NCBI RefSeq assembly: GCF_020166335.1
Contig: NZ_JAIUJR010000006.1
Coordinates: 62,001 to 126,000, forward strand
DNA: 64,000 bases
Reading direction: 5' to 3'
DNA from: Winogradskyella alexanderae
GTDB lineage: Bacteria; Bacteroidota; Bacteroidia; Flavobacteriales; Flavobacteriaceae
The notes beneath the pieces are model-generated. The model made no database searches and was not told the DNA's origin. It was given only the letters and a program-made list of their open reading frames with translations. The position numbers and the translations under genes are program-made. Below are positions 3,918 to 21,379 of this stretch, piece after piece; positions within the stretch are counted from its first letter, which is position 1, and each line of letters opens with the position of its first letter.

Positions 3918-4310
3918 GGGGTCGACTGGTTTTGACAGCGAGATTAATTAAATGGTAAGCACGTCGTGTAATGGTATTGATACACGTAAAAGGCTAGACC
4001 AAACTTTAAACGGCGAGAATAACTACGCTTTAGCTGCGTAATCTGAATTATAGTAAGATTTCTGCTTATTCCTGCTAGGCAGGAAGGCTAAATGTCTCCG
4101 GAAAGCCTTGGTTAGTGGCGTTCTTTTTAGAGGCATCGTAAAAATTGACCAAGATTGGGTAGTGCTTTAATGCCCTTTCAAGATTTAAAAGCTAAGTGTA
4201 AAGTAGGCTGTCTTTAGCTAGCTTAACATCGAAAAAACAAGAAAAGACTAAACGTGTAGAAAGCCTTTTGGTTACTTGTTTGGACGAGAGTTCGATTCTC
4301 TCCGACTCCA
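3918..4310 (+). ncRNA. ssrA: transfer-messenger RNA (tmRNA)
   Basis: Rescues stalled ribosomes and tags nascent proteins for degradation. The 5' GGGGTCG (3918-3924) pairs with CGACTCC (4303-4309), including the G3-U70 wobble read by alanyl-tRNA synthetase, with discriminator A4310. The T arm (GAGAGTTCGATTCTC) lies just before the 3' acceptor strand. The tag frame runs from GGC 4012 to TAA 4041 and encodes GENNYALAA, the form I recall for several Bacteroidota. The CCA end is not encoded (genome reads CAA) and must be added. A possible -7 element TAACTTCG lies at 3886-3893. Confidence 0.96.
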
Positions 4311-4318
4311 CAAATTAG

Positions 4319-14855: not shown

Positions 14856-14886
14856 TTGAAAATAAAAATTTACATTTCTATCTTTG
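14856..14886 (+). promoter_or_regulatory. trp operon promoter (Bacteroidota type)
   Basis: TTG at 14856-14858 and TATCTTTG at 14879-14886, separated by 20 bp, fit the Bacteroidota -33 TTTG / -7 TAnnTTTG pattern. The expected transcript start is about 14889-14893, immediately before the leader peptide ATG. Confidence 0.65.
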
Positions 14887-14893
14887 ACATGAA

Positions 14894-14950
14894 ATGAATT
14901 TTACAAAAACACATATTTGGTGGTGGTCATTAACAAAGCTTTGTTCGTGA
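14894..14950 (+). CDS. trpL: trp leader peptide (TrpL-type)
   Basis: An 18-codon frame from ATG 14894 to TGA 14948-14950 encodes MNFTKTHIWWWSLTKLCS. Three consecutive TGG codons (14918-14926) sit in the middle, upstream of a terminator hairpin and the complete trp operon. In a typical attenuator, ribosomes stalled on Trp codons let an antiterminator form. Here 14933-14942 can pair with about 14981-14990, the left arm of the terminator, with one bulge. The -7 element ends only 7 bp before the ATG, so the message may be almost leaderless. Confidence 0.85.
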   Translation: MNFTKTHIWWWSLTKLCS

Positions 14951-14978
14951 ACTAACACCTTGTATGTATTCAGTATAG

Positions 14979-15011
14979 AAAAAGGCTTGTCATTCACGAC
15001 AAGCCTTTTTC
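14979..15011 (+). terminator. trp attenuator terminator hairpin
   Basis: A stem of at least 11 bp, extending to 13 with flanking A-T pairs (14979-14991 with 14998-15010), a 6-nt loop and a terminal T-run. It lies 28 bp after the leader-peptide stop and 72 bp before trpE. The A-run on the left arm could also stop leftward transcription, but the nearby leftward gene points away from it, so a role in trp attenuation is the better explanation. Confidence 0.85.
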
Positions 15012-15082
15012 ATTGTTCTGAATTAGTTTTAGAATATAATTACACAATTGATAAAAGATACTGAATCAAGTTCAGTTTTAAT

Positions 15083-16483
15083 ATGAAAACATTTAGTCTT
15101 TACACACATTATAAAAAAATCCTTGCAGATACAATAACGCCTGTGAGCATCTATCTTAAGATTAGAGATAAGTTCCCTAACAGTATTTTATTAGAAAGTA
15201 GTGATTACCACGCAAACGACAATAGTTTTTCATATATATGTTGCAATCCCATTGCCTCAATTGAAGTTAGAAATGGTTCAATTTACCAGAATTATCCAGA
15301 CGGAAGTTCAAAAGTAAACCATACAAAAACCGTTAGTGTTGTTGAGGAAATCCAAAAATTTACACAACGCTTTAAGGTTGACTCTAAAGAAAACTTCAAG
15401 TTTATTAATAATGGTATTTTTGGCTACACAGCTTATGACGCAGTAAGATATTTCGAAGATATAAAGATTAAACAAAAACCAAACTCAATTGAAATACCTG
15501 AAATTTATTATGCAGTTTATCAAAATATTATCGCCATAAACCATTTCAAGAACGAAGCCTACATTTTTGCACACTGTTTTGATACCGAAAACAACATCGA
15601 AACACTTCTACAGCTAATACAAACCAGGCAGTATGCCTCTTATAATTTTGACACCAAAGGAAACATCGAATCTAATTTAACAGACGAGGAATATAAGGAA
15701 CACGTAGAACTTGCAAAAAAACATTGTGCTCGTGGTGACGTATTTCAATTGGTATTATCCAAACAATTTTCGCAAAAATTCTGTGGAGATGAATTTAATG
15801 TTTACCGTGCTTTAAGGAGCATAAATCCTTCTCCTTATTTGTTCTATTTTGATTACGGAAATTTCAAAATATTTGGTAGTTCTCCTGAGGCACAACTTAT
15901 TGTAAAGGATAACAAAGCGGAAATACATCCAATAGCAGGAACATTTAAACGAACGGGCAATGATTTAAAAGATGCTGAATTGGCGGAGAAACTCATTAAC
16001 GATGACAAGGAAAACAGCGAACATGTAATGCTTGTAGATCTTGCCAGAAATGACCTTAGCAGACATGGTCACAATGTTAAGGTAGAAACCTACAGAGAAG
16101 TTCAATTCTTCTCCCACGTCATACACTTAGTGAGCAAGGTAACTGGCCAGATGAATAAAGACACAGATACCATTCAAGTAGTTGCAGATACTTTTCCGGC
16201 TGGAACATTAAGTGGTGCACCTAAGCACATGGCCATGCAATTAATTGAAAAATACGAAAAAACGAGCAGAGGATATTATGGTGGTGCCATTGGGTTTATG
16301 GACTTTGAAGGCAATTATAATCATGCCATTATGATTAGGACATTTCTAAGTCAAAACCATCAATTATTTTGGCAAGCTGGTGCAGGATTGGTGGCTAAAT
16401 CAAATCCAGAAAACGAATTACAAGAAGTTTATAATAAGCTCGGTGCACTGACTAAGGCAATCGAACAAGCAAAAGCTATATAA
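15083..16483 (+). CDS. trpE: anthranilate synthase component I
   Basis: Converts chorismate to anthranilate with the TrpG glutaminase subunit; first step of Trp synthesis. The 466-residue protein has the N-terminal LLESS motif associated with tryptophan feedback binding. The chorismate-binding domain has PIAGTFKRTG, DLARNDL, FPAGTLSGAPK and GGAIGF. It is first in the operon after the attenuator. trpG starts after a single-base gap. Confidence 0.96.
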   Translation: MKTFSLYTHYKKILADTITPVSIYLKIRDKFPNSILLESSDYHANDNSFSYICCNPIASIEVRNGSIYQNYPDGSSKVNHTKTVSVVEEIQKFTQRFKVDSKENFKFINNGIFGYTAYDAVRYFEDIKIKQKPNSIEIPEIYYAVYQNIIAINHFKNEAYIFAHCFDTENNIETLLQLIQTRQYASYNFDTKGNIESNLTDEEYKEHVELAKKHCARGDVFQLVLSKQFSQKFCGDEFNVYRALRSINPSPYLFYFDYGNFKIFGSSPEAQLIVKDNKAEIHPIAGTFKRTGNDLKDAELAEKLINDDKENSEHVMLVDLARNDLSRHGHNVKVETYREVQFFSHVIHLVSKVTGQMNKDTDTIQVVADTFPAGTLSGAPKHMAMQLIEKYEKTSRGYYGGAIGFMDFEGNYNHAIMIRTFLSQNHQLFWQAGAGLVAKSNPENELQEVYNKLGALTKAIEQAKAI

Positions 16484-16484
16484 C

Positions 16485-17051
16485 ATGAACAAAATACTGG
16501 TTATAGATAATTACGACAGCTTCACCTATAATCTCGTCCATTATTTGGAGGATTTACATTGTGATGTAACCGTAAAAAGAAATGATAAATTGGCATTAGA
16601 AGAGGTTGAAGACTTCGACAAAATTGTACTGTCTCCTGGACCTGGTATTCCTGATGAAGCTGGACTTTTAAAGGACATCATTGCAAAATACGCACCAACA
16701 AAAAGTATTCTGGGTGTATGTTTAGGCCAACAAGCCATAGCCGAAGTATTCGGAGGATCAATAGACAATTTAAAACAGGTATATCATGGTGTTGCTACAG
16801 ATGTAATACTCTCCGTAGATGACGACCCTTTGTTTAAAAATATGGATAAAACCTTTAAAGTAGGTAGATATCATTCTTGGGTTGTCAGTCCAATTTTACC
16901 AGATAGCCTAGAAGCGACTTCCTATGACGAAAATGGACAAATAATGTCTATAAGACACAAAGAATATGATGTAAAAGGAGTGCAATATCATCCAGAATCA
17001 GTTCTTACTCCTAATGGAAAAAAAATACTTGAAAATTGGATTAAAAGCTAA
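16485..17051 (+). CDS. trpG: anthranilate synthase component II (glutamine amidotransferase)
   Basis: Supplies ammonia from glutamine to TrpE. The 188-residue class I amidotransferase has the oxyanion region LSPGPGIP, catalytic Cys in GVCLGQQAI, and the His-Glu pair in YHPES. It is a stand-alone glutaminase without a fused TrpD domain. Two bases separate it from trpD. Confidence 0.96.
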   Translation: MNKILVIDNYDSFTYNLVHYLEDLHCDVTVKRNDKLALEEVEDFDKIVLSPGPGIPDEAGLLKDIIAKYAPTKSILGVCLGQQAIAEVFGGSIDNLKQVYHGVATDVILSVDDDPLFKNMDKTFKVGRYHSWVVSPILPDSLEATSYDENGQIMSIRHKEYDVKGVQYHPESVLTPNGKKILENWIKS

Positions 17052-17053
17052 CC

Positions 17054-18046
17054 ATGAAAGAAATTTTAAATAGACTTATTAATCAAGAAAGTATAAGTAG
17101 TGAAGAGGCAAAAAATGTCTTGGTGAACATTTCTAGAGGTGTTTATAACCAAAGTCAAATTGCATCCTTTTTAACTATTTATATGATGCGAAGCATCACA
17201 ATCGAAGAGCTAAGGGGATTTAGAGATGCTCTTTTGGAATTGTGCATTCCTGTTGAATTAGATGGCGAAGCAACAATAGACTTGTGCGGTACAGGAGGTG
17301 ATGGTAAGGATACATTTAATATTTCAACATTATCGTCTTTTATTACAGCCGGAGCTGGCGTAAAAGTAACAAAGCATGGCAATTACGGTGTGTCGTCAAC
17401 ATGTGGCTCATCAAATGTCATGGAGAAACTAGGCATAAAATTTACAAACAACATAGACTTTTTAAAGCACAGTATTGATAAGGCAAATATCTGTGTCCTA
17501 CATGCACCTTTGTTTCATCCAGCAATGAAAAATGTAGCTCCAATAAGACGCGAACTTGGTGTTAAGACCTTTTTTAATATGCTTGGACCGATGGTTAATC
17601 CAGCATTTCCCCTTAATCAAATGGTAGGTGTTTTTAATCTTGAACTCTTAAGATTATATGGTTACCTCTATCAAGAAACAAATAAGAATTACGCTATAGT
17701 CCATGCATTAGACGGCTATGACGAAATTTCCCTCACAGGTAAAACCAAAGTAATTACCAATGATTCTGAACTACTATTCAGTCCCAGTGAAATTGGATTA
17801 CAACAAGTTAACCAATACGAAATTTTTGGTGGAAACTCAATTGAAGATGCTGCAAAGCTTTTTGAGAAAATAATTAGTGGCGAAGGTACGAATGCTCAAA
17901 ATGAGGTTGTCCTAGCAAACGCTGGATTAGCCATTGCAACAGCAAATAAAATTTCGCATACAGATGGCATCGAATTAGCGAAAGAGTCCTTATTTAACGG
18001 CAATGCCAAAAATAGTTTAGCAAAACTAATTGAATTGAGCAAATGA
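17054..18046 (+). CDS. trpD: anthranilate phosphoribosyltransferase
   Basis: Transfers phosphoribose from PRPP to anthranilate. The 330-residue protein has the PRPP-binding GTGGDGKDTFNIST motif, KHGNYGVSS, and the family HPAMKNVAPIRRELG segment. It overlaps trpC by 4 bp (ATGA), indicating coupling. Confidence 0.96.
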   Translation: MKEILNRLINQESISSEEAKNVLVNISRGVYNQSQIASFLTIYMMRSITIEELRGFRDALLELCIPVELDGEATIDLCGTGGDGKDTFNISTLSSFITAGAGVKVTKHGNYGVSSTCGSSNVMEKLGIKFTNNIDFLKHSIDKANICVLHAPLFHPAMKNVAPIRRELGVKTFFNMLGPMVNPAFPLNQMVGVFNLELLRLYGYLYQETNKNYAIVHALDGYDEISLTGKTKVITNDSELLFSPSEIGLQQVNQYEIFGGNSIEDAAKLFEKIISGEGTNAQNEVVLANAGLAIATANKISHTDGIELAKESLFNGNAKNSLAKLIELSK

Positions 18047-18828
18047 ACATCTTAGATAAAATAGTATTTGACAAACGTAAGGAGGTGGACTTGCGTAAGA
18101 AGTTAATTCCAGTGAATCAATTAGAGAACTCGGTTTTGTTTGGGAGAAAAACAAATTCTTTGGCTAATGCTTTACGTACAAGTGAAACAGGAATTATTGC
18201 TGAGCATAAGCGCAGATCGCCGTCAAAAGCCGAAATTAACTATAACCTTAACGTACAAGATGTTGCAACAGGATATGAAAAAGCAGGTGTCTCTGGTATG
18301 TCAGTACTAACTGATTCAAAGTATTTTGGAGGTTCCTTGGATGATTTAATTATTACCAGATCTAGCTGTAATTTACCTTTATTAAGAAAAGAATTTATTA
18401 TTGATGAATATCAAATCCTTGAGGCCAAAGCTTATGGTGCAGATGTTATTCTATTGATTGCGGCAATTTTAACGCAAAACGAAATAAAAGCATTATCTGA
18501 GTTTGCTAAACAACTCAAATTAGATGTTTTGTTAGAAGTTCATAATGAAAAAGAGCTACATAAATCAATTATACCGTCGATTGATATGCTAGGTGTTAAT
18601 AACAGAGACTTAAAAACCTTTACTGTTAGTCTTGAAACATCTAAAAATCTAAGCAGTTTAATACCTGACGATTTTGTAAAAGTTTCTGAAAGTGGCATCA
18701 GTTCAACAGAAGCCATTACAGAATTAAAACCCTATGGGTATAAAGGATTTTTAATAGGCGAGAATTTTATGAAAACCGAAGATCCAGGCTTACATGCTTT
18801 GAAATTCATTAATCAATTAACAAAATGA
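18043..18828 (+). CDS. trpC: indole-3-glycerol phosphate synthase
   Basis: Closes the indole ring from CdRP. The 261-residue TIM barrel has EHKRRSPSK near residue 52, LLRKEFIID, DVLLEVHNEKEL, GVNNRDLKTF and SESGIS. It is monofunctional, with TrpF encoded separately by the next gene. It overlaps both neighbours by 4 bp. Confidence 0.95.
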   Translation: MNILDKIVFDKRKEVDLRKKLIPVNQLENSVLFGRKTNSLANALRTSETGIIAEHKRRSPSKAEINYNLNVQDVATGYEKAGVSGMSVLTDSKYFGGSLDDLIITRSSCNLPLLRKEFIIDEYQILEAKAYGADVILLIAAILTQNEIKALSEFAKQLKLDVLLEVHNEKELHKSIIPSIDMLGVNNRDLKTFTVSLETSKNLSSLIPDDFVKVSESGISSTEAITELKPYGYKGFLIGENFMKTEDPGLHALKFINQLTK

Positions 18829-19439
18829 AACTGAAGGTTTGTGGCATGAAATATCTCAATAATATGGATGCAGTCTCTAAATTGCAACCAGATTTAATGG
18901 GCTTTATATACTATAAAAAGTCTTCAAGATATTTTCAAGGAGAACTTCCTAGCCTACCACCATCTATAAAAAAAGTTGGTGTTTTTGTGAATGAGGGAAT
19001 AAAAAAATTAAAAGAAATAATAGCTGAGCAAAATCTAGATATCGTGCAATTGCATGGTGATGAATCTCCAGATTACTGCTCACAAATTAAAGGAGTTGAA
19101 ATAATCAAAGTGTTTTCAATTAAAGACCAATTTGATTTCGATATTCTCAAGCCATACGAAAGTGTGTGTGATTATTATCTTTTTGATACAAAAGGAAAGT
19201 TGCCAGGTGGTAACGGTTACACATTTAATTGGGATCTGTTAAAAGCATATCCGTCTACCAAACCTTTTTTTCTAAGTGGTGGAATCGGATTAGATGAAAT
19301 TGAAAAAATAAATGAATTTAAAGAAAGCCCAGCGTCAAAATATTGTTACGCCTTAGATGTAAACAGCAAGTTTGAAATTAGTCCTGGCGTTAAAAATATT
19401 AATGAATTAGAAAAATTTAAGTATGAGCTACAACATTGA
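18825..19439 (+). CDS. trpF: phosphoribosylanthranilate isomerase
   Basis: Converts PRA to CdRP, the step before TrpC. The 204-residue barrel starts with KLKVCGMK (catalytic Cys), then [22 protein letters not shown] (catalytic Asp) and FLSGGIG. It overlaps trpB by 17 bp in a different frame. Confidence 0.95.
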
Positions 19440-20604
19440 TGAGAAAGGTTACTATGGCGAATTTGGTGGAGCATATATTCCAGAAATGCTCTATCCAAAT
19501 ATTGAAGAATTGAGACAGAATTACATGAAGATTTCTGAAGATCCGTCATTCAAAAAAGAGTTTAATCAATTATTAAAAGACTATGTGGGTAGACCATCAC
19601 CATTGTATTTTGCTAAAAGGTTATCAGAAAAATACAATACCAAGATTTATTTAAAGCGTGAAGATTTAAACCATACTGGTGCACATAAAGTGAACAATAC
19701 TATAGGTCAAATTCTACTTGCCAAAAAACTTGGAAAATCGCGAATCATCGCAGAAACTGGCGCAGGTCAACACGGAGTTGCAACAGCAACCGTTTGTGCA
19801 CTTATGGGTATAGAATGCGTGGTATACATGGGAGAAGTTGATATTGCGAGACAAGCACCTAATGTAGCACGTATGAAGATGTTGGGGGCAAAAGTAGTTC
19901 CGGCTTTATCGGGAAGCAGAACATTAAAGGATGCAACCAATGAAGCCATGCGCGACTGGATTAACAATCCTGTGGATACCCACTATATTGTTGGAAGTGT
20001 AGTTGGCCCACACCCTTATCCTGACATGGTAGCTAGATTTCAAGCCGTAGTTTCTGAGGAAATTAAATGGCAACTCAAGGAAAAAGAAGGTACTGAAAAT
20101 CCGGATTATCTCATTGCATGTGTAGGTGGTGGTAGTAATGCCGCAGGAACTTACTACCACTATTTAGACAACATGGATGTAAAAATAATTGCAGTTGAAG
20201 CGGCAGGAAAAGGCATTGATACTGGTGAAAGTGCTGCAACATCTGTTTTAGGAAAAGAGGGTATCATTCACGGTAGCAAAACACTTTTAATGCAAACAAA
20301 GGATGGTCAGATAACAGAACCTTATTCGATATCTGCTGGCCTAGACTATCCAGGTGTTGGACCGATGCACGCCAATTTATACAAAACAGGACGGGCAGAA
20401 TTTATTGCCATAACAGATGATGAAGCTATGACTGCTGGTTTAGAATTATCGCAACTAGAGGGTATTATTCCAGCTATTGAAACATCACATGCATTCGCTG
20501 TTTTTGAGTACAAAACTTTTAATCCGGAAGACATTATCGTAGTGAATCTTTCAGGTAGAGGCGATAAAGATTTACAGAACTATATTGATTACTTTAAGTT
20601 ATAG
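19423..20604 (+). CDS. trpB: tryptophan synthase beta chain
   Basis: PLP enzyme that joins indole and serine. The 393-residue protein has [12 protein letters not shown] at the start, the PLP lysine in [19 protein letters not shown], the phosphate loop [10 protein letters not shown] and GRGDKD at the C-terminus. It is the TrpB1 type that pairs with TrpA. The start lies 17 bp inside trpF. Confidence 0.97.
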
Positions 20605-20605
20605 G

Positions 20606-21379
20606 ATGAATAGAATACAGAAGAAATTACAAGAAAACAAAAAGTTACTTTCTATATATTTCACAGCAGGTTATCCTAACATTGATGACACAGTGACCAC
20701 AATCCAAAATTTGGAAAATAGTGGCGTAGATATGATAGAAATTGGTCTACCTTTTAGCGATCCATTGGCGGATGGACCTACCATCCAAGCTAGTTCTACG
20801 CAGGCTCTAAAAAACGGAATGACTAGTGAACTTTTATTTAAACAACTAAAAGACATTAGAGACACGGTAAAGATACCGCTGATAATTATGGGCTACTTTA
20901 ACCCTATCCTTCAATTTGGCGTTGAAGCCTTCTGTAAAACCTGTCAAGATATTGGTATTGACGGACTAATTATACCAGACTTGCCAGTAGATGTATATCA
21001 TTCCGAATACAAAAGTATTTTTGAATCCTATGGCTTAATAAATATTTTCCTCATTACGCCTCAAACATCAGATGACCGCATACGGTATATCGATTCTGTT
21101 TCAAATGGTTTTATTTATATGGTGAGCTCGGCAAGTACAACTGGTGCAAAATCTGGCTTTGGCCCTGAACAAGATGCCTATTTTAAACGTATCGCAAAAA
21201 TGGATTTAAAAAACCCACAAATTGTTGGTTTTGGCATTTCAAACTTTAAAACCTTCAAACATGCAACAACCCACGCAAAAGGTGCAATAATCGGTAGCGC
21301 TTTTATAAAACACGTTACTCATAATGGCATTAACACTATAGACCAATTTACAAATTCAATTATTCATGAAACTATTTAA
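20606..21379 (+). CDS. trpA: tryptophan synthase alpha chain
   Basis: Cleaves indole-3-glycerol phosphate and channels indole to TrpB. The 257-residue barrel shows catalytic Glu in MIEIGLPFSDPLADGP and Asp in LIIPDLP, followed by VSSASTTG and GFGISN. I chose the ATG at 20606, one base after the trpB stop, because an upstream alternative lies inside trpB and adds unrelated residues. Confidence 0.96.
   Translation: MNRIQKKLQENKKLLSIYFTAGYPNIDDTVTTIQNLENSGVDMIEIGLPFSDPLADGPTIQASSTQALKNGMTSELLFKQLKDIRDTVKIPLIIMGYFNPILQFGVEAFCKTCQDIGIDGLIIPDLPVDVYHSEYKSIFESYGLINIFLITPQTSDDRIRYIDSVSNGFIYMVSSASTTGAKSGFGPEQDAYFKRIAKMDLKNPQIVGFGISNFKTFKHATTHAKGAIIGSAFIKHVTHNGINTIDQFTNSIIHETI

Follow-up and report, generated by a model that had tools for sequence, protein, structure and literature searches.

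The trpEGDCFBA operon of Winogradskyella alexanderae is preceded by what we take, with a probability of roughly 0.8, to be a ribosome-mediated transcription attenuator. Its proposed antiterminator pairs UCGUGAA, an element of region 2 that lies across the leader stop codon (14945–14951), with UUCACGA, which consists of the terminator loop and the first bases of the terminator 3′ arm (14993–14999). Positions refer to the window, that is, the whole stretch of 64,000 nucleotides that was analysed, and the parts of the trp leader and operon are on its + strand. The attenuator is a known kind of element, for which there is an existing Rfam family in Bacteroidota.

NCBIfam naming of the seven downstream genes upholds the order trpE, trpG, trpD, trpC, trpF, trpB, trpA (15083–21379) given in the original prediction, with ATG 15083 as the start codon of trpE. 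The Bacteroidota-type promoter (14856–14886) is composed of TTG at 14856–14858 (−33), a 20 nt spacer and TATCTTTG at 14879–14886 (−7). The leader peptide ORF, MNFTKTHIWWWSLTKLCS, is 18 codons long (14894–14950); its ATG at 14894 is 7 nt past the −7 box and its stop codon is the TGA at 14948–14950. The three Trp codons, TGGTGGTGG at 14918–14926, are the predicted site of ribosome stalling and also constitute region 1. Between the leader ORF and trpE is a strong intrinsic terminator (14978–15011), which has a 14 bp stem, a 6 nt loop and a T-run, and which lies 72 nt before trpE. Its hairpin has a predicted energy of −22.1 kcal/mol, compared to −3.5 for shuffled sequences (z = −10.2; none of 200 shuffles equalled it). 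An origin of the terminator as a repeat was rejected, its core occurring once in the genome; TTCACGACAAG, from the stretch with the UUCACGA partner, has a single occurrence. Promoter, leader with its three TGG codons, hairpin with T-run and spacing to trpE had all been pointed out by the original prediction, and all are seen where it had placed them.

The window contains a match to Rfam RF01692 (Bacteroid-trp) at 14872–14991, scoring 51.2 bits against a gathering cut-off of 49; no other match in the genome scores as high. The runner-up (C51, 30.8 bits) was rejected, being under the cut-off and having no Trp-rich short leader before the gene there. RF01692 is a computational motif from a comparative survey published in 2010 (Weinberg et al., PMC2864571). 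Like its members, the match here is upstream of trp genes, as named by NCBIfam and in agreement with the relatives, and it has the conserved Trp-codon leader and the 5′ terminator arm GGCUUGUC. It differs in extent: the Rfam model, at 131 positions, stops at the 5′ arm, and is thus without the loop, the 3′ arm and the pairing of UCGUGAA with its partner. Within the same bacterial family, a match at E ≤ 0.001 was obtained for 141 of 199 genomes, and for 123 of them it is above the cut-off; a sample of the phylum gave a match in 42 of 395. The element is therefore not new in kind. The only Rfam matches in the window are Bacteroid-trp and tmRNA (RF00023, 139.4 bits, 3918–4313), and there is no match to a T-box riboswitch.

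For the comparative analysis, 154 leaders with terminators were extracted, of which 152 are distinct. The short ORF with Trp codons is kept in the relatives: nearly every extracted leader has three Trp codons (WWW, rarely WW), which begin at codon 9 in 130 of 141. Conservation of the leader and terminator, which had been named as one test of the original prediction, is borne out by these figures and by the locus from the same genus (L035), which has both WWW and the terminator.

Of the 150 leaders that have an ATG, 141 carry the promoter consensus TAnnTTTG (PMC7366714) in the 45 nt before it, compared to 3.3% of control windows. Among leaders L001–L163 the distance from this motif to the ATG is bimodal, at 4–12 nt (peak at 5) and 14–23 nt (peak at 17–18). 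The shorter group, to which the 7 nt found here belongs, makes up slightly less than half of the leaders sampled. This suggests that many trp leaders are nearly leaderless, provided that the transcript begins some 4 nt past the box, as we infer from the centre of the box lying near −7. In B. thetaiotaomicron, 5′ UTRs shorter than 10 nt account for only about 3.7% of the total (PMC7366714), and a leaderless trp leader is known from S. meliloti (PMC7298713). We also note a palindrome, CTGAATCAAGTTCAG, at 15061–15075, just 5′ of the trpE ATG. It has nine copies in the genome with at most one mismatch (four of them exact), compared to one for the backward control, and similar palindromes come after the terminator in several relatives.

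Two stretches stand out in the alignment of the leaders: UCGUGA, located on or close to the leader stop codon, and UCACGA, in the terminator loop and 3′ arm. In register, 97.3% of cells in this core are paired, compared to 3–50% when one strand is slid against the other, and the pairing of region 2 with the loop and 3′ arm has an energy of −9.6 kcal/mol against −3.5 for shuffled sequences (152 leaders). UCGUGA persists in leaders that read it as Ser-stop, in those that read it as Phe-Val-Asn and in those that have it past the stop codon. Because it is conserved across different reading frames, the constraint on it acts on the RNA. In the literature library searched, nothing relevant turned up on Bacteroidota trp leaders or loop-directed antiterminators, nor any experimental study of the element; the supplements of the 2010 survey may mention the pair.

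Compensated variants of the pair occur in separate lineages: UCGCAA/UUGCGA (L149), UCGUAA/UUACGA (L057), UCGUAA/UUGCGG (L096), UCGUAA/UUACGG (L124), CCGUAA/UAACGG (L059) and, with a bulge, L101. Using a null in which changes were placed at random on a trpE tree, UCGUGA/UCACGA has more paired cells than expected (p = 0.007), and the same holds for extra pair types (p = 0.026), while double-change cells exceed the null weakly (p = 0.076). The terminator stem, used as a positive control, gave 0.001–0.004 on the same null. When partners were swapped, only 8 of 17 variants did better with their own partner than with either swap. The covariation thus backs the pair in a real but modest way; it is modest because both strands are highly conserved and hardly vary.

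The original prediction had drawn the antiterminator elsewhere, with ACAAAGCUUU (14933–14942) pairing to the terminator 5′ arm (14981–14990). This helix can be drawn, having nine pairs with one bulge, and for the window sequence alone it is briefly favoured (P 0.5–0.7) in an RNA that stops at 14990 and has a ribosome held at the Trp codons. However, it is gone once the RNA reaches 15000 and is missing from L035. Nor do the 152 leaders favour such pairing: region 2 with the 5′ arm gives −4.6 kcal/mol, no better than the −5.3 of shuffled sequences. We therefore reject a region 2 to 5′ arm antiterminator as the general design, and consider the helix as originally drawn, which is neither conserved nor stable, to be very unlikely. 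There are three clear exceptions, L125 and L128/L129, which are members of RF01692 and in which region 2 seems to pair with the 5′ arm; the apparent antiterminators are AAAGUCUU with AAGACUUU and GGCAGCC with GGUUGCC. What stands from the original interpretation is a ribosome-mediated attenuator with a conserved leader and terminator, which would respond to tryptophan; its antiterminator is the part that we replace.

The geometry test of the proposed UCGUGAA/UUCACGA antiterminator assumed a ribosome footprint that reaches 11 nt beyond the A site. On this basis, the UCGUGA element stays exposed whichever of the three Trp codons the ribosome is on, while a terminating ribosome hides it fully in 148 of 152 leaders, even though the reading frame varies or the element follows the stop codon. 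A different role for UCGUGA/UCACGA, as a pseudoknot or tertiary contact serving for example basal readthrough or protection of the terminated leader as a small RNA, has in its favour that the outer terminator stem could still form, judging from the sequence, if the loop alone were captured, and that trans-acting leader RNAs are known in Sinorhizobium (PMC7298713). However, an element that is free under a stalled ribosome and hidden by a terminating one follows the logic expected of an antiterminator, and we regard such a role as improbable.

Constrained folding gave a consistent result. With a ribosome at the third Trp codon the antiterminator pair is predicted in 98% of the 152 leaders, compared to 2% when region 2 is shuffled, and in 1% once the ribosome has moved on to the stop codon. 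In the predicted folds, the antiterminator is thus allowed by a stalled ribosome and excluded by a terminating one, as in an attenuator. If the ribosome is left out, the prediction still gives the pair in 30% of leaders; region 1 pairs with the element instead, with a mean of 4.2 expected pairs. In the predicted stalled fold of the window, 14945–14951 is paired with 14993–14999, and inside this helix ACACCUU (14955–14961) is the predicted partner of the 5′ arm, CCUU pairing with AAGG (14982–14985) and ACA with UGU (14988–14990).

The pair is favoured in these calculations until about seven bases of the 3′ arm are exposed; from eight on, the terminator wins at equilibrium, and the switch would therefore have to be kinetic. 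At the moment of decision, the polymerase still encloses the last bases of the terminator arm. The predicted exposure limit is compatible with kinetic control, rather than proof of it.

From the computed conservation, complementarity, geometry and predicted folds we infer the following sequence of events. When Trp-tRNA is scarce, the ribosome would stall at the Trp codons and cover region 1, leaving UCGUGAA free to capture the loop and first 3′-arm bases of the terminator as they emerge, assisted by pairing of CCUU with AAGG of the 5′ arm. In this kinetic competition the hairpin would be held off while the polymerase crosses the T-run, and trpEGDCFBA would be transcribed. When tryptophan is plentiful, the ribosome would reach the stop codon and hide UCGUGAA, so that the terminator could form and the genes would be off. 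Without translation, region 1 is predicted to pair with region 2, and the terminator would form in most leaders.

The general plan is that of the E. coli trp attenuator, in which the leader carries tandem Trp codons, the hairpins exclude each other and a terminator precedes trpE. The two differ in the antiterminator: in E. coli it uses the 5′ arm of the terminator, whereas here its base would be formed by the loop and first 3′-arm bases, with a smaller 5′-arm helix inside. The same genome has a his leader (G000:C47, L164) that is similar in having a leader peptide, MNQNQLHHHFHLIAQAR, and a terminator before hisG, but there the 5′ arm offers CGUUUGAG as a partner for CUCAAGCG near the stop codon, which is the classical arrangement. 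In this his attenuator, at about 1451–1600 of L164, the terminator before hisG is AACCCGTTTGAGAACATCAAATGGGTT, and CTCAAGCG can pair with CGTTTGAG in the 5′ arm. Sinorhizobium meliloti trpL resembles the present leader in that the trp leader ORF is at or near the 5′ end of the RNA; it belongs to another phylum and has another promoter, and it is for trpL that a leader RNA acting in trans has been demonstrated (PMC7298713).

We also scanned 420 nt upstream of trpE at 62 loci of the class outside the family (L166–L235). A Trp-codon leader together with a terminator was found at 46 of the 62, but in no shuffled sequence (0 of 620) and on no antisense strand. These leaders far outnumber the RF01692 detections in the phylum sample. 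A terminator that is simply the constitutive end of a small RNA, the Trp codons being incidental, is hardly credible given this result and the retention of both features before trpE across the family. Outside the family, the antiterminator involves the 5′ arm and loop in 31 of 49 leaders (p ≤ 0.05) and the loop and 3′ arm in 12 of 49, and its geometry seems to slide between lineages. We see even odds for a wider proposal, namely that a kinetic attenuator catching the loop and 3′ arm, often with a near-leaderless leader, is family-wide, and that related families catch the 5′ arm by a sliding of the same geometry.

On sequence comparison and modelling, this is a known kind of element whose antiterminator probably lies elsewhere than originally predicted. 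An Rfam motif known only from computation thereby becomes a switch that can be tested base by base, and the pairing of UCGUGAA with the loop would explain why the terminator loop UCAC is near-invariant and why the leader stop codon lies where it does. The analysis also indicates that attenuation at Trp codons is widespread in the class, far outside the reach of RF01692 detection.
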